IMG/VR virus record: IMGVR_UViG_3300025132_000245
Coordinates: 1-26,422 of that record
Source: a virus
Length of the DNA stretch: 26,422 nucleotides
Strand: one strand, 5' to 3'
Position 1 is the first letter of the stretch, and each line of letters opens with the position of its first letter. Shown piece by piece: positions 9,951 to 25,211 of the stretch. Under the pieces are notes generated by a model, which saw nothing but the letters and a program-made list of their open reading frames with translations, searched no databases and was not told where the DNA came from. Position numbers and translations under genes: made by a program.

Positions 9951-10271
9951 TTAGTATTCTCCAGGAGTTTTCATACGTTCCACAGATTTCGAAGCTACAT
10001 TGAAGGTATTAATCTCCATATACTTCGATAAAGCATTCTTTTTTAACGATTCGAATGCAGTTGCTGCAGTTTTTTGAGTTATAATCTTTACTTTAAAGAT
10101 ATATTTATTGGTTGCATCGTCAGAATTAGCAATAGTACAGGTAGTTACACCTGGAAGCGCTCTTATTAAGTCTGCAAGTACGGATGGACTAGCATCTCTA
10201 CTAGTTACTTGTACCATAGCCCTGTAAGGAGTATAATTTGCTTCAGATAATATAATTTTTGATAACTTCAT
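9951..10271 (-). CDS. Small alpha/beta hypothetical protein (106 aa) in neck operon
   Basis: The reading frame overlaps the stop of the preceding gene by one base (TAATG), a sign of translational coupling. The product has an N-terminal strand-helix (MKLSKIILSEANYTPYRAMV), then VLADLIRALPGVTTCTIA, KYIFKVKIITQKTAATAFE and a final helix. This beta-alpha-beta-beta-alpha pattern resembles a small ferredoxin-like or ACT-like fold, based on visual pattern only. It has no catalytic motif. Its position between the 380-aa and 161-aa neck candidates suggests a minor structural or assembly role. A TEAxxA-type helix after the second strand is the only other clear landmark. Confidence 0.6.
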   Translation of the reverse strand: MKLSKIILSEANYTPYRAMVQVTSRDASPSVLADLIRALPGVTTCTIANSDDATNKYIFKVKIITQKTAATAFESLKKNALSKYMEINTFNVASKSVERMKTPGEY

Positions 10272-11487: not shown

Positions 11488-13077
11488 TTAAATCTGAGAT
11501 AAGTCTGAGATAAAGATTCTTCCGTAGAATTCAGGTCTGATCATTTTCTTAGCGTAACGAGTCATTAAACCTTTTCTAGGAGTGAAGGTTTCAGGATCGT
11601 ACACAAGAGGTGTCATTAATAATGGAACATAAGGAGCATATACTGCACCAGTTTCTAAGAATTGAGATCCTCTAAATCCTAACAAGATTGTATTTTCAGT
11701 CATATAAGGATTCTTATATACTTTAAATCTGTTAGCAAGAGATCCAACTCTCTGTACGCCCATATTGTACTCAGCTTGATCGCCATCAGTTGAAGCTGCA
11801 TATCCTGGAATAGATTCTAGGATTGTAGAAACGTTTGGAGAACATACTAAGAAGTTTGCACCACCTCTTAAAGTCTTCTGATGGATCTTGTTAGATACTT
11901 TTTGGATTTTAGTACCAAGAGTTTGGAACCATTGTCCTTGAGTATTGTAGAAATCAGAAGTTGAAGTAGACCAAGATGTACCGTCCCAAATTTTATTGTT
12001 TTCGGCAGACCATCTTTCAGTAGTTCTTGCTTCAAGAATTAACATATCAAGAATCTCTAGATCGATTTCCATTGAAATGTACTCACTTAATAGTGAAGTC
12101 AATTCAGCTTCTGCATCGATAGAGTGATATGCGTTAAGATCTTGAGCAAATTCTGGAGTCCATTGTGCCTTTAACTTTCTTGTCTTAGCCACAATTGCTT
12201 CAGATGCTAATTGAACATCAATTTCAGGTATTCTGATTGAAGTATCAACAGCTCTGTCTGAGTTAGCCTGGAAATCACCTCTATCGTTATCTACTGGTTG
12301 CTTGTGATACAATACTGTTGCATCAATTGTACTAGTAGTAAAGTTAGAAGCAGTAACTACGAACGTTACAGCGTTTCCAGAAATAGTAGTTAATTCAGGG
12401 TGAGAAGTAATATCAGAAGAAGCAGAGAAGATTCTAAATGCTCTTGCTGCTAATTGATCGATATTATCTGATCCTGAGAATGTAGTAGTAAACGATTTAA
12501 ACTGTCCAGGTTGGATATCGTTGTTGTATCCAATAGAGGCAGAAGTAGCAGCCGCTTGAGCAGTACCAGCAAACGCTTTCGAAGAAGAGTTGATAGTATA
12601 CCCAAATTGACCTGCTCCATATAAACCGCCGCTAGGATCAACATCTACTCCAATTTTGGAGTTTGCAGTTGATACGTTACCGTACATATTTGCACCGTCA
12701 GCTCTTCCTCCTACTCCGTCTCCATATTTGAAGTCTAAGTAAAATACAAGTCCTGATGGTAGATTCATTGGTTGTACTGATACAAAGTCCTGTGCTACGA
12801 TTTGAGCAAAGACTTTACGTACTAATGGTAGAGCAACACCTGCCCACTGCTCGCCGTCACCAGCAGAAAAAGATCCTCCTGATGTACCAACTGTGTTAGC
12901 TTCAGCAACGATTTGTTTAGCTTGGTTCTCAAGAATCATAGCCATGTTGTTTGCATGTCTTTCATCACTGATACCTTCTAACAAACCAGAAGCTTGCCAC
13001 TTGTCAGCTAGTCTAGCAGCGTCAGCTTGTAAGCTTTTGTAAGTGTTTGAACTCTCTAATAGGTTTTTAATTTCCAT
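11488..13077 (-). CDS. 23: Major capsid protein, T4 gp23-like (529 aa)
   Basis: This protein forms the hexamers of the phage head. Its length (529 aa) is close to T4 gp23 (521 aa). The N-terminal ~59 residues are helical and charged, as in the gp23 propeptide. VAE-ANTVGTSGGSF at residues 57-70 matches the place and style of the gp23 cleavage site (T4: IAE-AEIGGDHG). After it comes VRKVFAQIVAQDFVSVQPMN-(L)PSG, equivalent to the conserved AxDxxGVQPMNxPTG region. The C-terminal part keeps YAPYVPLLMTPLVYDPETFTPRKGLMTRYAKKMIRP, a gp23 hallmark. It follows the scaffold gene by 11 nt with no box between them, so it is expressed from the scaffold unit and ends at a strong terminator. The start ATG gives a typical propeptide length. 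Confidence 0.95.
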   Translation of the reverse strand: MEIKNLLESSNTYKSLQADAARLADKWQASGLLEGISDERHANNMAMILENQAKQIVAEANTVGTSGGSFSAGDGEQWAGVALPLVRKVFAQIVAQDFVSVQPMNLPSGLVFYLDFKYGDGVGGRADGANMYGNVSTANSKIGVDVDPSGGLYGAGQFGYTINSSSKAFAGTAQAAATSASIGYNNDIQPGQFKSFTTTFSGSDNIDQLAARAFRIFSASSDITSHPELTTISGNAVTFVVTASNFTTSTIDATVLYHKQPVDNDRGDFQANSDRAVDTSIRIPEIDVQLASEAIVAKTRKLKAQWTPEFAQDLNAYHSIDAEAELTSLLSEYISMEIDLEILDMLILEARTTERWSAENNKIWDGTSWSTSTSDFYNTQGQWFQTLGTKIQKVSNKIHQKTLRGGANFLVCSPNVSTILESIPGYAASTDGDQAEYNMGVQRVGSLANRFKVYKNPYMTENTILLGFRGSQFLETGAVYAPYVPLLMTPLVYDPETFTPRKGLMTRYAKKMIRPEFYGRIFISDLSQI

Positions 13078-13088
13078 GAGTTTTGTTA

Positions 13089-14318
13089 TTATTTAATTAT
13101 TCCAGCTAATTTTTGCATTCTACGAACAGCATCGGATACTTCTGAAATTACTTCTGGCTTACTTGCAGTAGTACCAGTAGCTTTAGAAGCCATTCCTTTG
13201 TGTTCTTTGATTGTAGTCTCTTTTTTAGTAACTATATTTTCACTAACAGTTTCAAATACTAATTTTACTTCTTTGACTGTTTCTGCTTTATCAAAAGCAG
13301 CAATAACGTTTACTTTTTGAGACTCTGTAAGGTTATTGGCCTTAAAGATCTTGTTTACGTAAAGAAGTTTACTATTTAAAATATTTACTTCGTTAAGATC
13401 CTTCTTAAGAGTTTCGATAGTTTTAACTGATTCTTTCAGGTCTTCTTCCAACTTAGCAACTCTGTTGACGTTGTAATCTTTACCATCTGATTCAGCATTG
13501 ACTTGAGTAGAAGTATCTTCTTCCATAGCATCTTTATCTTTGCTATGTTTAGCTTCCATCTTATCATCTTTATCGTGTTTAGCCTCTTCCATTTCCTTTT
13601 CTTTATCACCTTCGGAAACAGCTTCTAGTTCTTGAAGTAATTCATCTAAATCGATTTCTTCTTCATCTTCGGCTGGTGCATCAGGAACTTCTAAATTATC
13701 CTCATCCCCCATACCTTCAATGTCTCCTGCGTCCATATCGTCTGCAGGTTCGCCGCCGCCCATTTCTGTGCTAATGATATCTCTGATTAAGTCTTTAAAT
13801 TGATCAACTGTAAGGTCTCCTAATTCTTCGTCTCCATCAGCATCATCTTCGGCTCCATGATCTTCAGCTTCGTCTTCAGATTCTTCTGAATCATCCTCGG
13901 CCTCGTCTTCTTCAGCTTCGCCAACTGGTTCTACTTCTGATAGATCTTCCTCTACTGCTTCGTCTTTTTCGTCTTTATGAGCTTCGTCCATATCATCATC
14001 TTTAGCTTCATCCATGTCCTTATCCTTGTGAGCTTCGTCCATGTCTTTATCTTTATGAGCTTCGTCCATGTCCTTATCCTTGTGGGCCTCGTCCATGTCC
14101 TTGTCGTGATGCTTGGCTTCCTCTACTTCTTCTTCGACCTCGTTAGTTGCTACTTCATCGACTTCTTTGTCTTCCATCTCTTGAAGTTTAGCAGCTAACA
14201 TGTCTTTTAGATGAGGAGTTAAAGTCTCTTCTAAAGCTTCTTTAGCGTTAGCAATAGCGGCTTCTCTTACAGATTTAGCTTCAGCAATAGCTTGCTTGAA
14301 TAAATCTTTGTTTGCCAT
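13089..14318 (-). CDS. Prohead core scaffolding protein, gp22-like by position (409 aa)
   Basis: The protein is extremely acidic and helical and lies just upstream of the capsid gene, the position of T4 gene 22. Residues 1-50 form a charged helix containing QAIAE-A at residues 10-14, a gp21-type (I/L)xE cleavage site. Residues 69-121 carry six HKDKDMDEA-type 8-10-residue units, three of them perfect. Residues ~120-270 are a very acidic, probably disordered region. Residues ~290-345 (RVAKLEEDLKESVKTIETLKKDLNEV) are a coiled coil, and the C-terminus ends VRRMQKLAGIIK. Scaffold proteins of this kind fill the prohead and are degraded by the protease. The assignment rests on position, acidity and coiled coil rather than clear sequence similarity to T4 gp22. 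Confidence 0.8.
   Translation of the reverse strand: MANKDLFKQAIAEAKSVREAAIANAKEALEETLTPHLKDMLAAKLQEMEDKEVDEVATNEVEEEVEEAKHHDKDMDEAHKDKDMDEAHKDKDMDEAHKDKDMDEAKDDDMDEAHKDEKDEAVEEDLSEVEPVGEAEEDEAEDDSEESEDEAEDHGAEDDADGDEELGDLTVDQFKDLIRDIISTEMGGGEPADDMDAGDIEGMGDEDNLEVPDAPAEDEEEIDLDELLQELEAVSEGDKEKEMEEAKHDKDDKMEAKHSKDKDAMEEDTSTQVNAESDGKDYNVNRVAKLEEDLKESVKTIETLKKDLNEVNILNSKLLYVNKIFKANNLTESQKVNVIAAFDKAETVKEVKLVFETVSENIVTKKETTIKEHKGMASKATGTTASKPEVISEVSDAVRRMQKLAGIIK
13956..14111 (-). repeat. 27-nt tandem repeats in scaffold gene (HKDKDMDEA)
   Basis: In-frame units of about 27 nt encode HKDKDMDEA. Three consecutive copies are perfect at protein level (residues 79-105), with degenerate copies on either side. 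Synonymous differences between copies (for example GTGAGC versus ATGAGC on the plus strand) show they are not brand-new duplications. Confidence 0.85.
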
Positions 14319-14421: not shown

Positions 14422-14450
14422 AAAATAAAAAACCCGACAGAAAGTCGGGT
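14422..14450 (-). terminator. Rho-independent terminator after the 142-aa gene
   Basis: The coding strand has ACCCGAC-TTTCT-GTCGGGT, a perfect 7-bp stem, followed by TTTTTTATTTTC. It lies about 25 nt after the stop codon of the 142-aa gene and separates it from the scaffold-capsid operon. Confidence 0.93.
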
Positions 14451-14474
14451 CTTAAGTGTAGCGGTCTTAAATTC

Positions 14475-14903
14475 TTACGAATCTAATATATCTTTAATTT
14501 CGTTTTTGAATTTTTGTTCTTTAGTAAGCTTAGTTTCTTCTACGCCTTCTTCGTAGCCTCTACCTTTTTCTCTAGCTTGTCTTTTTACTGATGAAAAGTC
14601 TTTTGAGAAAGCATCCCAAGCTTTACAAAGTTTGTTGTCTTTATTAGCCTGGCAATATTCCATTGCTGATAATCCTCCTTTGACTGCTGCAAATAATCCA
14701 GCTCCATAAGTAGCTAAATATCCTAGTAGTGAAGGATTTTGCATTACCATATCTAAAATATCAGTTCCTTCTGTTAATTCTTCTTCTGGAATTACTGCTA
14801 CTTCATCTTCTGATAGAGCAACTTCTTGCTCTTCCATTTTCTTATCGTCCTTTTTACCTTCGGCGATAAATTTTCTTAAGTCGAAATTGTTATAGTTGCT
14901 CAT
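14475..14903 (-). CDS. Candidate capsid internal/core protein with targeting-like N-terminus (142 aa)
   Basis: The N-terminus MSNYNNFDLRKFIAE-GKK ends in FIAE-G. This strongly resembles the capsid-targeting peptide of T4 internal proteins (MKTYQEFIAE-A), which the gp21 protease removes. Residues 17-50 are acidic. Residues 58-81 (SLLGYLATYGAGLFAAVKGGLSAM) are strongly hydrophobic and Gly/Ala-rich, long enough to span a membrane. C84 and C93 form a C-x8-C pair, and the C-terminal ~45 residues are charged helix. The gene sits between protease and scaffold with its own TATTTATA box and terminator, so it is a separately expressed head-region gene. I infer a protein packaged inside the prohead and possibly ejected with DNA. 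A plain core component is the main alternative. Confidence 0.65.
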   Translation of the reverse strand: MSNYNNFDLRKFIAEGKKDDKKMEEQEVALSEDEVAVIPEEELTEGTDILDMVMQNPSLLGYLATYGAGLFAAVKGGLSAMEYCQANKDNKLCKAWDAFSKDFSSVKRQAREKGRGYEEGVEETKLTKEQKFKNEIKDILDS

Positions 14904-14923
14904 TTTGTTGTAAGTTATTTATA

Positions 14924-14931
14924 TATAAATA
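14924..14931 (-). promoter_or_regulatory. TATTTATA box upstream of the 142-aa gene
   Basis: The coding strand reads CATATTTATATATAAATAAC, 21-28 nt upstream of the ATG at 14903. Uniquely, this site also contains a TATAAATA on the coding strand (14916-14923), the T4-type late-promoter orientation. Confidence 0.5.
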
Positions 14932-14951: not shown

Positions 14952-15530
14952 TTATGATCTTAATATATCGTTAATAATATTGTCTAAATTGGCATAAGGA
15001 GCTTGTTTACCTTTATTTTCTTGTAATGAAATTGGATTCATAAAAGCTCCATGAGTAGAGGGATTAGAAACAAAATCCCAGCATACTAATTCAAAGTCTG
15101 GTTGTACCTCTAATTGGCCTTCGTTGGTTTGTTGAACTGAACCTGTACCTCTTGATGATATACCAATAGTATGACCTGCTTTAATGATTTCTTTAACTAT
15201 ATTACCAGCTGGGGTATTTAATAGTTCTACACGTCCCATCAAGTCGTCTCCGTCCCAGTAAAGGTCTTTTACTATATGAGAAGCATTCTTGAGAGAGACT
15301 ACCGGAGATTCAGGATGATCTAGTTCGCCGAAAGCATTACCATTCTTTACGAATTCATCCATATACTTCTTAGCTTCTCTTTCTAAAATTTCTTTTTTAT
15401 AAACTCTACCGTTTTGATTTTCAGAAGAAGCTCTCTGCATAATACCTTCAACTTCGAAGACTCCAGGGCGTCCTTTCGCTTCTTTTAAGGTAGGTCTAAA
15501 TGGCGTAACGTCTACTAATAATTGTGCCAT
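14952..15530 (-). CDS. 21: Prohead maturation protease, T4 gp21-like (192 aa)
   Basis: This serine protease cleaves capsid and core proteins during head maturation. Visible landmarks are FGELDHP with His72, HTIGISSRGTG with the candidate catalytic Ser125/Ser126, and FELVCWDFVSNPSTHGAF, which holds the conserved acidic Asp. This is the His/Ser/Asp layout of the peptidase U9/S77 prohead protease family, and the length suits it. RASSENQNGRVYKKEILERE near the N-terminus is also typical. The gene starts 2 nt after the 477-aa core-like gene, so it is probably in the unit beginning at 18047. Substrates likely include the capsid protein and neighbours carrying (L/I/V)xE-A/G sites. The C-terminal tail (NLDNIINDILRS) is short and charged. 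Confidence 0.92.
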   Translation of the reverse strand: MAQLLVDVTPFRPTLKEAKGRPGVFEVEGIMQRASSENQNGRVYKKEILEREAKKYMDEFVKNGNAFGELDHPESPVVSLKNASHIVKDLYWDGDDLMGRVELLNTPAGNIVKEIIKAGHTIGISSRGTGSVQQTNEGQLEVQPDFELVCWDFVSNPSTHGAFMNPISLQENKGKQAPYANLDNIINDILRS

Positions 15531-15532
15531 AT

Positions 15533-16966
15533 TTAAAAGTTTGGTGTGAATACTGTTGGTTTGGGTTCTTCTTCTATTTCTCCTGCTGCTCTAGCTTGTG
15601 CTACTATTTCAGGGTCAAGTCTTTTTGCTTTAGGTAATTGCAAATCTTTAGTAAAACCTTTCTTAGTTACTGGTCTTAGGTCTTGCATAAAAGCTGATTC
15701 AATAGCAGGACCTATAAATACTCCTACTTTTAAACCTTCATCATTCTCTATAGTATCCATACTATCGTAAATTTTTTGAATTTTATCTCTAGTTTTACTA
15801 TAGAAAGATTCTACTTCAGTAACAATATTTTCTAACTGATTAACTACCTGTTGAGCTCCGGCAAATGATTGATATTCATCTCCAATAGAAGAAAGTCTAT
15901 TAGTAGCTGCTTCATTAAGATTTTCAGTTAAACTTTTTTTTATAATAGATTTTATAGCTTCTTTTAATTGCTTTTCTTTTTCAGCTTGTTTTTCTTTAGC
16001 TATATCGTAAGTAGATTTTTTACCAGCTCGTTGGTCTTGATCGTGAGCTTTTTGCATTCTTTTCATTGCATAGCTCTCATCTTTACCCATAGCTTTTTTG
16101 ATAGCTTTATCTTTAGCAGCCATATAATCGTCAGAGTCGATGTCTCCATCTCCGTCATGATCTTTGCCTTGCTTTTCTTCCATAGATTCAAAATCGTCAG
16201 GACCAATTCCGGGTAACTCTTTATCGTAATCTACTTTATCAGTTTCAATACCTCTGTTGTAGTATTGATAGTTTGCAGCAGCATATGCCTCAAATTCATC
16301 TTCTATATCAGCTCCATCTTTAAGATCTTGATAATGCATATCTAAGAAATCTTTGATAATATTATTAGATATTAAATCTTTATATTTAGATTTTAATACT
16401 CCTATAACTTTACCAAGCATAGCTTTTTTAGCATCTTCTGACATAGGTGGGTTAGGGTTAACTACTTCTTCAGTTTCTTCTTTCAAAGTAGCTTTTTTCA
16501 TACCGTTAAAGGTATCTATATCTTTAGCTCCTCTTTTTACTTCTTTTTCTCTATCGTGCTTATCTACATTGTTAGATTCACCTGCCATTAAATTTAAGTA
16601 ATGATTACAGTCTTTATCTAAATTTTCTTTAGCTTTTGCTTCAGCCTTATAGTAGTCTTCAACTTTGACATGCATGTGGGCCATAATGTCCATAGCTGCT
16701 AATTCAGCTCTAATACCTCTCTCTAAAGCATCTAGAGAATAATTTCTTTCAGGCCTATCATCATAAACTTTTTCTGCAGTAGGTTTTTCAACTTTAACTT
16801 CATACAGCATATTTCGATTTTTTAAAATCTGAACTGTAGAATCGAAGCTATCATATTGAGAAACATACATTGGATATTTTTGTCTCATTTGACGAACAAA
16901 TTCAGACTTAGCCAACCTGCCCTCGGTTACGGCTCTGTATTTTTCTGTTACTGTTATAGTTCTCAT
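15533..16966 (-). CDS. Prohead core-like protein with an EF-hand loop (477 aa)
   Basis: The protein is charged and mostly helical, without membrane segments. Residues ~55-115 are basic-acidic helix. Residues 269-280 read DHDGDGDIDSDD, which fits the 12-residue EF-hand loop (D at 1, 3, 5; G at 6; I at 8; D at 9 and 12) and suggests one calcium site. It is followed by YMAAKDKAIKKAM, a suitable exiting helix. Residues 330-353 form a Lys-rich helix ending NLNE-A, a gp21-type site. Residues ~375-410 (VVNQLENIVTEVESFYSKTRDKI) look like a coiled coil. It overlaps the 77-aa gene by 4 nt (ATGA) and abuts the protease gene. It occupies the interval between portal and protease where T4 has core genes 67 and 68, but no homology to them is visible. 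Confidence 0.65.
   Translation of the reverse strand: MRTITVTEKYRAVTEGRLAKSEFVRQMRQKYPMYVSQYDSFDSTVQILKNRNMLYEVKVEKPTAEKVYDDRPERNYSLDALERGIRAELAAMDIMAHMHVKVEDYYKAEAKAKENLDKDCNHYLNLMAGESNNVDKHDREKEVKRGAKDIDTFNGMKKATLKEETEEVVNPNPPMSEDAKKAMLGKVIGVLKSKYKDLISNNIIKDFLDMHYQDLKDGADIEDEFEAYAAANYQYYNRGIETDKVDYDKELPGIGPDDFESMEEKQGKDHDGDGDIDSDDYMAAKDKAIKKAMGKDESYAMKRMQKAHDQDQRAGKKSTYDIAKEKQAEKEKQLKEAIKSIIKKSLTENLNEAATNRLSSIGDEYQSFAGAQQVVNQLENIVTEVESFYSKTRDKIQKIYDSMDTIENDEGLKVGVFIGPAIESAFMQDLRPVTKKGFTKDLQLPKAKRLDPEIVAQARAAGEIEEEPKPTVFTPNF
16127..16162 (-). other. EF-hand/dockerin-type calcium loop coding segment
   Basis: This segment encodes residues 269-280 of the 477-aa core-like protein. All six ligand positions of a canonical EF-hand loop are satisfied, with Asp instead of Glu at position 12. 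Only one loop is present, as in dockerin half-units. Confidence 0.7.
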
Positions 16967-17196
16967 AAATAATCAAATCCTTTAGTATGTGATGGTCGTT
17001 TAGGACGACTAACCTGTTTATATCCTTGTCTCTTTAACGTTTTAACTGCTCTGTTACTTTTACCAAAAGCAAACGGAGTAGCATAAGTTGCTCCTTTTCC
17101 AGGAGTAAATGAAGCGCCTCCAGAACCTACTGCATTAGCTTCATCTAATTCTTGCATTACTTCTCTAACTAAAGATACTAAGTCTGATCTTTTCAT
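16963..17196 (-). CDS. 77-aa head-region protein with capsid-like cleavage motif
   Basis: The N-terminal 16 residues form a short helix (MKRSDLVSLVREVMQE). Residues 17-39, beginning LDE-ANAVGSGGASF, align without gaps to residues 57-79 of the major capsid protein (VAE-ANTVGTSGGSF onward) with 11 of 23 identities, and the alignment starts at the predicted protease site. The rest is basic (KTLKRQGYKQVSRPKRPSH) and ends FDYL. It overlaps the upstream gene by 4 nt (ATGA) and the downstream gene by 4 nt, so it is translationally coupled within the portal-to-protease unit. I infer a minor head protein whose N-terminus is removed by the gp21-like protease. The basic tail could contact DNA. A chance match in a Gly-rich segment is the alternative. 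Confidence 0.7.
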   Translation of the reverse strand: MKRSDLVSLVREVMQELDEANAVGSGGASFTPGKGATYATPFAFGKSNRAVKTLKRQGYKQVSRPKRPSHTKGFDYL

Positions 17197-19997: not shown

Positions 19998-21572
19998 TTA
20001 TTTAAGTAACCAAGAAATATCCTCTTCGCCACCTTGTGTCTTTAAAAGATACGGATTATTTTCCGATCTACCAACAGTTGATATGATTGCTTTATTTTGA
20101 GCATTTAAGTTATTAAAGCTAGATAATTGTGCTCTGGCAAGGTCCATACCTTGCTGTCTTAGTCTTAATGCAGTATCCCTTATATATAGAGCAGTTGCAG
20201 CTGATATTACTAAATCATCGTTATAACCATCTTGAGCTTGAGCTTTACCATTTTTCCATATAAAAACTCTCATTTCTTCTAATAATCTTTTAGATTGGAT
20301 AGTTACCGATTTATCTCTTACATACTCCATTAACTTAGCAATAACTAAAGGCCTTGTTCTTGCTGACATAGTGAATCCAGGTACTAATTGGTCTCTTTCG
20401 TATTTAGTCATATATGATTCTACAGTATCTAAATGATTTCTAGGAGAATAATATAAGTTCCTATATTCTCTTTCCATTACCTGCTCTATAGTAGCCCAAC
20501 CTATATTAGCATTTTCAACTACTAACAATGCATCATTATACTCTGCAGCTATACCAACAAGTACATTACCGAAATCCTTAGGTGATAGTTTACCTTTATA
20601 CTCAGCTACTTGAACGCATGACTCAATATCAAATATATGGAATGCTGAATAGTCGGTAGAGTCTCCTCTAGCGACGTCAGCTACTACCATATACGATTTA
20701 GAATAATCTACTCCTTCCCAAACCCATAAGTTACCATCAACTCCTCTTCTTTCTAAAGAATCTTTTAACCAAGTTTTTTCTATGAAGAGCATATCGTCTG
20801 GCTCAAATACTGTATCACCTGAAGCTAAGAAGTCGCAGTCACATTCTTGACCTGCCATACGAGGACCTAAGTCAGCATCTTGTTGTTCTCTCCATTTTTT
20901 ATCTCTTTCAGGATGAACCGTCCATGGAAGTCTAATAGGTAAGAAACTATTTTCACCTGCTTCAGCTTTAGCCCATGTATGATGAAACCAATTACCAATA
21001 CCATTAGGAGTAGATAGTGCCATACATTGACCACCTGTAGCTAACGTTTGTTGAGCAGCAGTAAAGGTTTCATCAATATTATCTATAAAAGCTGCCTCAT
21101 CCATAAGGAGTAACGATACTGCTTCAGATCTTGCAGCATCTGGAGATGATGATTTAGCTTGTACTTTAGAACCATTTTTTAATCTTAACGATAATTTATT
21201 CTTCTCTACAGCAGGTAGTCTTAACCATTTAGGTAATTGATCATACATAAAAGTAACTTTAGTAACTAAGTTACGAGCTGTTGCTTGAGTAGTTGCTAAA
21301 GCTAATACGTTTTTATCTTTATGGAATAACATTAACCATAAACTGTATGCTGAAGCTAAAGTAGATATACCTAGCTGTCTAGACTTAAGAGTAATTAAAT
21401 ATTGATTGTCTCTAAATAAATGAAGTACTTTTTCTTGAAAAGGGTACAAAGCAAATAAAATCCTACCTCTTGTAGGATGCTGTATATAGCAGTACTTTCT
21501 CATAAAGTACGCCGGATCTTTAGCACACTTAATATACTCTTGTGCTATTATTTTTTTTATATCTTGTGCCAT
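19998..21572 (-). CDS. 17: Large terminase subunit, T4 gp17-like (524 aa)
   Basis: This is the DNA-packaging motor ATPase and headful nuclease. The ATPase domain has a YPFQ adenine-binding (Q) motif at residues 43-46, a variant Walker A LKSRQLGIST at 62-71, Walker B LLLMDEAAF at 154-162 with catalytic Glu159, and coupling motif LSTPNG at 186-191. The RNase H-like nuclease domain has VADVARGDSTDYSAF with Asp299, VVENANIG with Glu353 and DGYNDDLV with Asp452/Asp453, so all three metal-binding acids are present. Length is a little shorter than T4 gp17 (610 aa). It starts 2 nt after the 473-aa putative nuclease-fold gene and is followed directly by the portal. No recognisable small terminase lies in the window, and T4 genes 18 and 19 are absent between 17 and 20. 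Confidence 0.96.
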   Translation of the reverse strand: MAQDIKKIIAQEYIKCAKDPAYFMRKYCYIQHPTRGRILFALYPFQEKVLHLFRDNQYLITLKSRQLGISTLASAYSLWLMLFHKDKNVLALATTQATARNLVTKVTFMYDQLPKWLRLPAVEKNKLSLRLKNGSKVQAKSSSPDAARSEAVSLLLMDEAAFIDNIDETFTAAQQTLATGGQCMALSTPNGIGNWFHHTWAKAEAGENSFLPIRLPWTVHPERDKKWREQQDADLGPRMAGQECDCDFLASGDTVFEPDDMLFIEKTWLKDSLERRGVDGNLWVWEGVDYSKSYMVVADVARGDSTDYSAFHIFDIESCVQVAEYKGKLSPKDFGNVLVGIAAEYNDALLVVENANIGWATIEQVMEREYRNLYYSPRNHLDTVESYMTKYERDQLVPGFTMSARTRPLVIAKLMEYVRDKSVTIQSKRLLEEMRVFIWKNGKAQAQDGYNDDLVISAATALYIRDTALRLRQQGMDLARAQLSSFNNLNAQNKAIISTVGRSENNPYLLKTQGGEEDISWLLK

Positions 21573-22997: not shown

Positions 22998-24008
22998 TTA
23001 TCCTTCTTCTCCTGCTTCGAAATCAATAGGTTCATCAGATAGGTCTTCACCTCCTTCAGCACCACCAATATCTCCACCGGCGTCGTCACCTCCTAGATCT
23101 TCTCCGCCTCCTGCAGCATCTCCACCAGGAAAGTCTCCTCCCCCGCCTCCGCCACCGGAATCAAATTCAGGAGTTTCTGCATCTTCTTCTCCTGCGCCAG
23201 ACATAGGTGCTTCTTTATAAAGAATATTAAGTTTATCTAAAGCCTGTTGATAATCGCTTATTTTGTTTATTATGTACCTTTTACCCATTATTTGAGCTTC
23301 AAAAGTACTTCCTGTCCATTTTAAAATATAATCTTGTCCATTTTTGAGATTTACTCTAAAAGATGTAGGTCTTGGAGAGATCCAATCTACACTTTCTACA
23401 AACTCTTTAAAGTCTTCAGTTTGTAGTTTTATTATAGCAGATTTTAAAGTAGGAAATTTCGATAAAATTTGATCAGTAGCATCTTCCAATACAGGTCCAA
23501 CATCTGATGCTGGTTCTTCTGGTGTTGGTTCTTCCTCTTCTATTAATTCATCTAATAGTGATTCCTTCATTAGATCTTTAAATCTTTTAGAAGGTAACAT
23601 ATCTTCAGGCTCTATGTAAGTTCTAGAACCTTTTGGATCTACATGAGGTCTTCCATAATCATCTTTATCGTCTGCTTCTTCTAAACCAGGAAAGTTACTC
23701 ATGTTTTGTAAAAACTTGATTTTTTCTTCTTCATTTCCTGGTATATCGTCTTTAAAGTGTTTGATCATACCAGGGTCGTAATCTTTTTTAGGAAAGTACA
23801 TAATAACATTTCCGTTACCATCATCGTCTACTATATCGGTAATTCTTGCATCAAAAAAAGTTTCTATAGTTTGAGCAAATGAATTTACTAGTGCTTTATT
23901 TCTTCTTGGAGCTTTAATATAGTAAAGATGATCTGGTGCTTCATTAAGCTCAAATAGGACATCTTGATATGCTTCAAGAATAATATTTTTTAGATGTGAT
24001 TTTTTCAT
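22998..24008 (-). CDS. Acidic head-region hypothetical protein with processing-like N-terminus (336 aa)
   Basis: The first 24 residues form an amphipathic helix (MKKSHLKNIILEAYQDVLFE) ending LNE-A, which resembles both the start of the 77-aa protein and gp21-type cleavage sites. Residues ~25-110 look like a small alpha/beta domain (NSFAQTIETFFDARITDIVDD). Residues ~150-185 are acidic and disordered. Residues ~185-265 form a second alpha/beta domain (KFPTLKSAIIKL, YILKWTGSTFEAQIMGKRYI). The last ~65 residues are Gly/Asp/Glu-only low complexity, including a seven-Gly run, ending FEAGEEG. It abuts both neighbours, so it belongs to the unit starting at 25211. I do not recognise the family. A structural or scaffold-like head role fits its acidity and the processing motif. 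Confidence 0.6.
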   Translation of the reverse strand: MKKSHLKNIILEAYQDVLFELNEAPDHLYYIKAPRRNKALVNSFAQTIETFFDARITDIVDDDGNGNVIMYFPKKDYDPGMIKHFKDDIPGNEEEKIKFLQNMSNFPGLEEADDKDDYGRPHVDPKGSRTYIEPEDMLPSKRFKDLMKESLLDELIEEEEPTPEEPASDVGPVLEDATDQILSKFPTLKSAIIKLQTEDFKEFVESVDWISPRPTSFRVNLKNGQDYILKWTGSTFEAQIMGKRYIINKISDYQQALDKLNILYKEAPMSGAGEEDAETPEFDSGGGGGGGDFPGGDAAGGGEDLGGDDAGGDIGGAEGGEDLSDEPIDFEAGEEG

Positions 24009-25211
24009 CTAGTCTTTACTTTTTTTCTTATATCCTTTATGCCAATGTTCGTTTGATGTTTTAATATCTAGCTCATTGACTGGAATATTTTTTACTGTTT
24101 TTCCGCTTTCAAATAAAACGTCATAATGAGTAACTACGTATTTACTTCCTTCCTTTACTAATGTATGTTTTTCAGGAATACAATCTCCTTTACCGTATTT
24201 TTCGTGAACTACTTTAGCAGCACAGTCATGAGCAAAACCAGGTCCTGCTTCATCTACATCTGCAACTTCTTGATCTGCTCCTGTCTTTTTAATTTTACTA
24301 TGCATTTTAGCTTCGTAATCTTTCTTTTCTTGATTTAATTTTTTAACCTTAGAAATAAATCCTTTTCTTTTAGGATCATCTTGGGGTAATTTATTCATTG
24401 AAGGAGCTAACTTTTTGACTTTATCTATATCAGCTTGAATATCAGATAAGTCTCTTGCTTCGTTAGCTTTAGGATTAGGCTTTACTATTTTTGTATAAGC
24501 CATAGTCATTGGACTTTCTGATACTTCTTCTTCTAAGGCAAGTTGATCTAATGCTGGTTGCTTTTCTTCAAACTCTAAATAATGCTGTGCTTTAGAAATA
24601 TACTCTCTAGCTAAAATTACTTTAGATTGCCACCAGTTAGGAAAGTCTACCTCACCGTCCATTTGATCATACTTATTCAATTGCTTATATAATTTAGCTG
24701 CATAAGTAGCAATGTCATACGCATATTGCTTTAACATATCTGGTTCATCGTCTGTATGTCCTACGTCCATATCATCCTCTCCACCATCTGGTTGAGGTGC
24801 TGGTTCTGCATCCATAGGTACCTCTTCTTCATTTTGAGTAGCTAAATCTTTTTCAGTTTGTATCATAGCCTGAATTTTTTTAATTTTATCCTGATCCGCA
24901 GGTGAAAGCCTACCCATTCTTTTTCTTTCCATATCCTCTTCGTCTCCTGGTTTCATCTCTGAAGTAAGTTTTACATTAACTCCGTCATCTGCTAAATCTT
25001 TAGCTTTTTTCTCATCATCGGTAGATACCATACCTTTATCGGCTTCCGCAAGTAGTTTAAGCTTGGCCTGTAATGATTCTTTTAATTCTTGTAGTTGGTT
25101 AATAGTATTGGGAACATTTATAGACTTATTGTTAGTAAAGGTATCGCTTTTTAAAGTTTGTAAAGCAGTCTGTACCTTATTAAGTCTATCTTGGACTTCT
25201 TGGTAGGTCAT
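24009..25211 (-). CDS. Acidic helical hypothetical protein in head operon (400 aa)
   Basis: The protein opens with a Gln-rich helix (MTYQEVQDRLNKVQTALQTL) and a coiled-coil-like region to about residue 60, with LLAE-A at residues 53-57, a possible gp21-type site. Residues ~75-165 are acidic and probably disordered. Residues ~165-225 (YAYDIATYAAKLYKQL to HYLEFEEKQPALDQL) are helical. Residues ~265-310 are Lys-rich. The C-terminal ~80 residues form a compact domain with AHDCAAKVVHEKYGKGDCIPEKH (two Cys) and a beta-rich HYDVLFESGKTVKNIPVNEL ending in NEHWHKGYKKKSKD. It leads the unit that ends with terminase and has a TATTTATA box 23-30 nt upstream. The family is unknown to me. Virion association is inferred from neighbours and composition. 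Confidence 0.6.
   Translation of the reverse strand: MTYQEVQDRLNKVQTALQTLKSDTFTNNKSINVPNTINQLQELKESLQAKLKLLAEADKGMVSTDDEKKAKDLADDGVNVKLTSEMKPGDEEDMERKRMGRLSPADQDKIKKIQAMIQTEKDLATQNEEEVPMDAEPAPQPDGGEDDMDVGHTDDEPDMLKQYAYDIATYAAKLYKQLNKYDQMDGEVDFPNWWQSKVILAREYISKAQHYLEFEEKQPALDQLALEEEVSESPMTMAYTKIVKPNPKANEARDLSDIQADIDKVKKLAPSMNKLPQDDPKRKGFISKVKKLNQEKKDYEAKMHSKIKKTGADQEVADVDEAGPGFAHDCAAKVVHEKYGKGDCIPEKHTLVKEGSKYVVTHYDVLFESGKTVKNIPVNELDIKTSNEHWHKGYKKKSKD

Follow-up and report, generated by a model that had tools for sequence, protein, structure and literature searches.

A variable head-gene slot in a T4-like phage encodes a putative accessory head cargo protein with an interchangeable N-terminal leader

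Injected head proteins are known mostly from the T-even phages and a few giant phages. In T4, leaders of 10–19 residues target the internal proteins (IPs) to the core, and gp21 removes these leaders (PMC9026906). The T4 proteins Ip1-3 have only the leader in common, are injected into the host and block type IV restriction enzymes (PMC12373910); such modularity of leader and body is a hallmark of the T4 internal proteins (PMC12373910; PMC3012670). In phages of the phiKZ/SPN3US type, near-identical N-termini are situated on the diverged proteins gp53 and gp54 (PMC5694885).

The window analysed here comprises all 26,422 nucleotides of one stretch of viral DNA and represents part of a T4-like phage genome; its major genes are all encoded by the minus strand and run as follows: terminase (19998–21572), portal gp20 (Portal_T4, E 9e-68), three head-region genes, gp21, the ORF under study (14475–14903), a scaffold-like gene and gp23. 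The gp21 homologue, a prohead protease (14952–15530, minus strand), matches Peptidase_S77 (E 2e-34) and phrog_207 (E 2.8e-53), and the major capsid protein is a gp23 homologue (11488–13077, minus strand; E 5.7e-81). Between the gp21-type protease and an acidic gp22-like scaffold (13089–14318, minus strand), the latter assigned by its position and make-up, lies the ORF. The scaffold begins with MANKDLFKQAIAE/AK, where the slash here and below marks a putative cleavage point, and its last residues are RRMQKLAGIIK; it also includes a series of DKDMDEAHK repeats that are nearly identical (about 13980–14110) and whose number varies among relatives. The nearest cultured phage is Flavobacterium phage immuto, with a capsid protein 66.5% identical, followed by Microcystis phage Mel-JY01 (52.7%, capsid protein) and then Rhodothermus phage RM378; since these are the nearest cultured phages, the host is probably a member of the Bacteroidota.

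ORF 14475–14903 (minus strand, 142 residues) is a real gene, as judged from its close homologues, a dN/dS of about 0.2 in comparisons with two homologues, the conservation of its start, and the presence of a box upstream and a strong terminator downstream. The homologues occur in metagenomic viral contigs at 76% identity over residues 11–142, and the leader aligns too. Upstream of the ATG, a putative late-promoter box is formed by the palindrome TATTTATATATAAATA (14916–14931, minus strand), with TATTTATA located 28 nt before the start codon. Downstream, an intrinsic terminator, AAGACCCGAC-TTTCT-GTCGGGTTTT plus a T run (14429–14453, minus strand), has a predicted energy of -15.3 kcal/mol (z -4.6). 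The box and terminator that the original prediction assigned to the ORF are thus both present, and both recur in genes of the same slot that share its leader type, class A: the TATTTATA box at -26 to -35 in 14 of 21 and the terminator in 17 of 21, so that a separate transcription unit is indicated in the relatives as well. On the coding strand, TATTTATA is found at 1890, 3648, 8591, 11428, 14408, 14924, 18064, 19987 and 25234, upstream of most gene groups of the window. It is the reverse complement of the T4 late box TATAAATA, and 11 of the 14 matches to TATAAATA in the window lie on the non-coding strand side.

The protein consists of a leader, an acidic linker, a helical body with a Cys pair and a C-terminal tail. 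The class-A leader (residues 1–15; 14859–14903, minus strand), with the N-terminal sequence MSNYNNFDLRKFIAE/GKK..., is a putative capsid-targeting peptide ending in FIAE/G, and M1, F7, L9, E15 and K17 are invariant in an alignment of 17 homologues. The acidic linker (residues 16–45; 14769–14858, minus strand) is modelled at low confidence and ends in ELTE45/G46. The body (about residues 46–126; 14526–14768, minus strand) is predicted to be helical and holds a weakly hydrophobic Gly/Ala-rich stretch (residues 57–81) and C84-x8-C93, which confirms the C-x8-C pair noted earlier; the Cys pair is present in 16 of 16 body-bearing homologues with a spacing of 8–10 residues. The conserved C-terminal tail LTKEQKFKNEIKDILDS (about residues 126–142; 14478–14528, minus strand) contains K128, E129, F132, K133, I136, K137, L140 and D141 as invariant residues in the 17 homologues. 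Some family members (L012, L039) are devoid of the body, and L012 retains the tail despite this. Across the 17 family members, mean pairwise identity amounts to 74% in the leader (residues 1–17) and 82% in the tail, compared with 36% in the body (residues 46–126). Neither the conserved tail nor the second site, ELTE45/G46, formed part of the original prediction.

Two protease-type sites border these segments. The leader ends in FIAE15/G, with E15 invariant, and a second hydrophobic-x-E site ([ILV]xE/[GAQ]) precedes the body in 16 of 16 body-bearing members, in the variants ELTE/G, DITE/G, EVNE/G, GVNE/G, DLNE/A, DINE/A, QIDE/Q, EVNE/A, TLEE/G, NLNE/G and NINE/G. As a protease-type site, ELTE45/G46 is better conserved than FIAE15/G. 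Because the second site precedes the body in all of these members, the mature product is probably residues 46–142; cleavage at E45 agrees best with the family, and E15 would be a first or additional site. The expected processing enzyme is the gp21-type protease encoded by the adjacent Peptidase_S77 gene, and the capsid protein contains a site, IVAE/A, that aligns with T4 FLTE/A. Motifs of the type [ILVF]xE are common (in immuto, about 8% of the comparable internal windows have one), so that a single site proves little; the argument lies in the conservation of the sites at fixed borders between modules. Multiple sites within propeptides are known in T4 and in giant phages. The inner-body ejection proteins of phiKZ/SPN3US also carry long propeptides, in which a relative of gp21 cuts at several xxE sites, but they belong to giant phages, their propeptides exceed 100 residues, and no homology to the ORF was found.

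Most relatives contain, inserted between the two sites, an extra module of 55–70 residues (PGFxHDCAAHVVHETYGYGxC...) that the window ORF does not carry. This module is also preceded by an xxE site, (I/V/M)(D/E)E before (T/A/S)(A/G)PGF, and such precursors would be cut at the module borders. In the window, a copy of the module constitutes the C-terminal ~75 residues of 24009–25211 (55% identity). The model of the module, of moderate confidence (pLDDT mostly 65–81), resembles SH3/Tudor/KOW domains, a common fold for which no match is significant; several of the resembling domains bind RNA polymerase. The module, which contains Cys and His and is predicted to form a small SH3/Tudor-like barrel, is common to the conserved head-region protein 24009–25211 and the relatives' slot cargo (L001:3743–4405), and PHROG 22379, 11470 and 764 also carry it.

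Compared with T4 IPI/IPII/IPIII, the ORF likewise possesses a short N-terminal leader ending in hydrophobic-x-E and its own terminator (T4 record X04567), and a gp21-type protease is encoded in the same phage. Like the T4 IPs, it is an accessory gene, with a leader conserved on unrelated bodies and a content that varies between relatives. However, its leader has 15–17 residues instead of 10 and is not significantly similar in sequence, a second conserved site is located about 30 residues on, the C-terminal tail is conserved, the gene lies between 21 and 22, and the host group is probably Bacteroidota. In addition, T4 IPII and IPIII are basic (pI about 9.6), whereas the putative mature protein has a pI of 4.7 (after E15) or 6.5 (after E45). 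Since the mature protein is not basic, the ORF product is filed as one that would work like a T4 internal protein and is not placed in that family. The close resemblance to the T4 peptide claimed by the original prediction is overstated: the T4 leader MKTYQEFIAE scores 21 against the ORF N-terminus, below the 24 that is the median best score of shuffled leaders over the window proteins, although the peptide is too short for this to exclude homology. Direct homology to the leaders of the T4 IPs or gp22 is likewise not above chance, and the FIAE and Y4/F7 spacing common to the T4 and ORF leaders is suggestive only. Because the T4 likeness is not above chance, support for reading the N-terminus as a leader comes from its conservation across unrelated bodies. 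The whole explanation preferred here, with a probability of roughly 0.72, is an accessory head cargo protein working like a T4 internal protein.

A membrane-active protein, such as a pore, a holin-like protein or a factor assisting DNA entry, which once ejected would touch the inner membrane of the host through its hydrophobic segment, is an unlikely alternative. The Gly/Ala-rich segment named by the original prediction does exist at residues 57–81, and in occupants of the same slot with other leader types (classes B and C) the helices are clearly hydrophobic, with 19-residue means mostly of 1.6–2.8. The usual transmembrane level for a 19-residue Kyte–Doolittle mean is about 1.6. However, the best such mean in the ORF is 1.11, below a typical membrane helix, a Lys is located inside the segment, and four homologues of the same family (L007, L050, L051 and L070) carry a non-hydrophobic segment in its place; the segment is present but weak, and its hydropathy does not fit a transmembrane or holin-like protein. 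Database comparison gives the protein no family: Pfam yields no match up to E 1, the best PHROG match (E 0.012, of unknown function) and the best PDB match by sequence (E 0.62) are not significant, and the cargo bodies yield nothing above the Pfam cut-offs. The AlphaFold2 model of the ORF is poor, with a mean pLDDT of 51.6, so no fold search was made on it.

The slot between protease and scaffold is highly variable, and this bears on a second alternative. The contigs were gathered by the neighbouring protease alone, so the slot content is unselected. Among 57 loci with both flanks, the window included, the slot is empty (no ORF of at least 45 aa) in 8, and the others hold 1–3 ORFs from six unrelated families. 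Presence of a class-A protein changes at least 8 times on the protease tree, in which branch support is moderate; the slot labels on this tree come from simple regular expressions, and of these only the scoring of class A as present or absent is used. The closest relatives by protease hold different slot proteins; in L004, for example, the protease is 90% identical and the slot protein is unrelated. A structural part of the core of the prohead, gp67/gp68-like or an auxiliary scaffold, that is targeted, degraded and lost and has no role after injection, is quite improbable on this pattern, since the gene is missing from close relatives or replaced there by unrelated proteins. Such a component would suit a small acidic precursor encoded among the head-assembly genes, with the protease on one side and the scaffold on the other, features reminiscent of T4 gp67/gp68; in T4, moreover, gp22, gp67 and gp68 likewise belong to the core or are cut by gp21, and IPIII also helps head assembly. 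Nevertheless, T4 gp67/68 are essential and lie between 20 and 21, and the 8 empty slots, a purely comparative argument, speak against a universal core protein of this type; the ORF also has a conserved non-acidic body, which from E45 to the tail contains few conserved sites yet keeps its Cys pair. In addition, dozens of unrelated bodies carry this leader, some of them encoded at other places in the immuto genome.

The accessory cargo reading draws its main support from this reuse of the leader. Over all sequences collected, the class-A leader heads 69 proteins in 34 body clusters, while 25 N-terminal cases of a further leader type, class D, fall into 23; both cluster counts are upper-end values, as BLASTP clustering at E 1e-3 may miss distant homology. 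With 34 body families and the higher identity of leader than of body, the N-terminus is constant and the body varies among relatives; the check proposed in the original prediction thus came out in its favour. A DNA pattern covering the leader alone is found on contigs of other clades with wholly different bodies. Conversely, one hydrophobic slot body family occurs behind leader types A, B and C (type C versus type B, 47%; type A versus type B, 32%). Because one leader heads 34 body clusters and one body stands behind three leaders, leader and body appear to be exchanged as separate modules. Closely similar tags head unrelated proteins in related phages, from which we infer that the first ~17 residues are a removable capsid-packaging tag. 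In the same phages, the type B leader reads MKLSxIILES and the type C leader MKKSQLxEIIREILxE. Similar N-termini occur in the window at 16963–17196 (MKRSDLVSLVREVMQELDE/A), 22998–24008 (MKKSHLKNIILE/A) and 9951–10271 (MKLSKIILSE/A), and these may be additional head or core proteins that undergo processing. A tblastn search of 50,697 phage records with the whole ORF protein and with the leader gave no match; among these records, Immutovirus was the only group in which leaders of class A and class D were detected. The 160-kb genome of immuto, whose host is Flavobacterium sp. LMO8, encodes four clear class-A proteins (at 1803, 103806, 117631 and 118632) and two class-D proteins (at 25061 and 111675). 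The gene immuto26A_194 (L136:47631–48632), annotated as a cob(I)alamin adenosyltransferase, has a class-A leader (MADNFNLRSFLTE/N) and no Pfam match, and its name is probably wrong.

In the type D leader, the scaffold end RRMQKLAGIIK is situated near the N-terminus of other proteins, for example MKKQILSEEFxRMQKLAGIITE. The scaffold source of RMQKLAGI is the C-terminus, at about 13089–13121. Among the matches listed, RMQKLAGI is mostly C-terminal, mainly in scaffolds, and is N-terminal in at least 14 otherwise different ORFs; the class-D leader scores 49 against the scaffold C-terminus, compared with a shuffled-control maximum of 37. An N-terminal RMQKLAGI followed by a protease-type site occurs in L136:41675–42139, L138:25061–25456, L145, L158, L168, L169, L218 and others. 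No paper on the motif was found in a literature search beyond whose reach most subscription journals lay. Likening class A to the scaffold N-terminus (DLFKQAIAEAK) failed, the score of 23 being below the null median. The least likely reading takes the N-terminus as some other localisation or regulatory peptide of late proteins, the ORF protein acting inside the producing cell; packaging is indeed inferred and class-A leaders are also borne by genes at a distance from the head genes (immuto 1803 and 103806; several contigs), but T4 ip genes too lie outside the head cluster, the leaders end in protease-type sites, and the class-D leader points to prohead assembly because it is an exact copy of the scaffold C-terminal 8-mer.

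Under the accessory cargo reading, the ORF would be expressed late from its own transcription unit. The N-terminal leader (residues 1–15/17) would recruit the protein to the assembling prohead core, the C-terminal tail possibly helping, and the neighbouring gp21-type protease would cut FIAE15/G and ELTE45/G to yield a helical protein of ~97 residues (46–142) with the Cys pair. The mature product would remain in the capsid with the DNA, most likely be delivered to the host and act early in infection; a speculative best guess for the host target is a strain-variable function such as a defence system. Packaging and processing are very likely on the sequence evidence, and delivery into the host, argued by analogy with T4, is moderately probable. 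The core of the original prediction, a capsid-targeted internal protein cleaved by the prohead protease and distinct from the scaffold, is supported by the conserved leader, the variable body and the absence in some relatives. Its proposal of membrane contact and counter-defence found no direct support, given the weak hydropathy, the absence of a known family, the poor model and the non-basic mature protein, and a counter-defence role is tentative and rather doubtful.

A wider proposal stands at even odds: in immuto-like far-T4 phages, the interchangeable leaders A, B/C and D would mark a fast-changing set of prohead cargo, cut by the protease and in part made in the form of precursors with several modules; the genome of an uncultured phage would then reveal its injected repertoire, and the window protein would be one such cargo. 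As cultured immuto carries class-A and class-D proteins, the leader idea is directly testable; no immuto proteomics paper was found in the literature search. Immuto (L138, L139) also encodes a 7-deazaguanine DNA modification pathway (QueC, QueD, QueE, QueF, FolE and DpdA), and in this context injected proteins could plausibly act against modification-dependent restriction. Loading cargo by means of a scaffold-tail copy at its N-terminus would, if true, be new. Should the leaders act as packaging signals, predicted virion cargo would come to include dozens of unknown proteins from aquatic phages that are abundant and uncultured, and candidates for early-infection or anti-defence functions could be listed by their leader.
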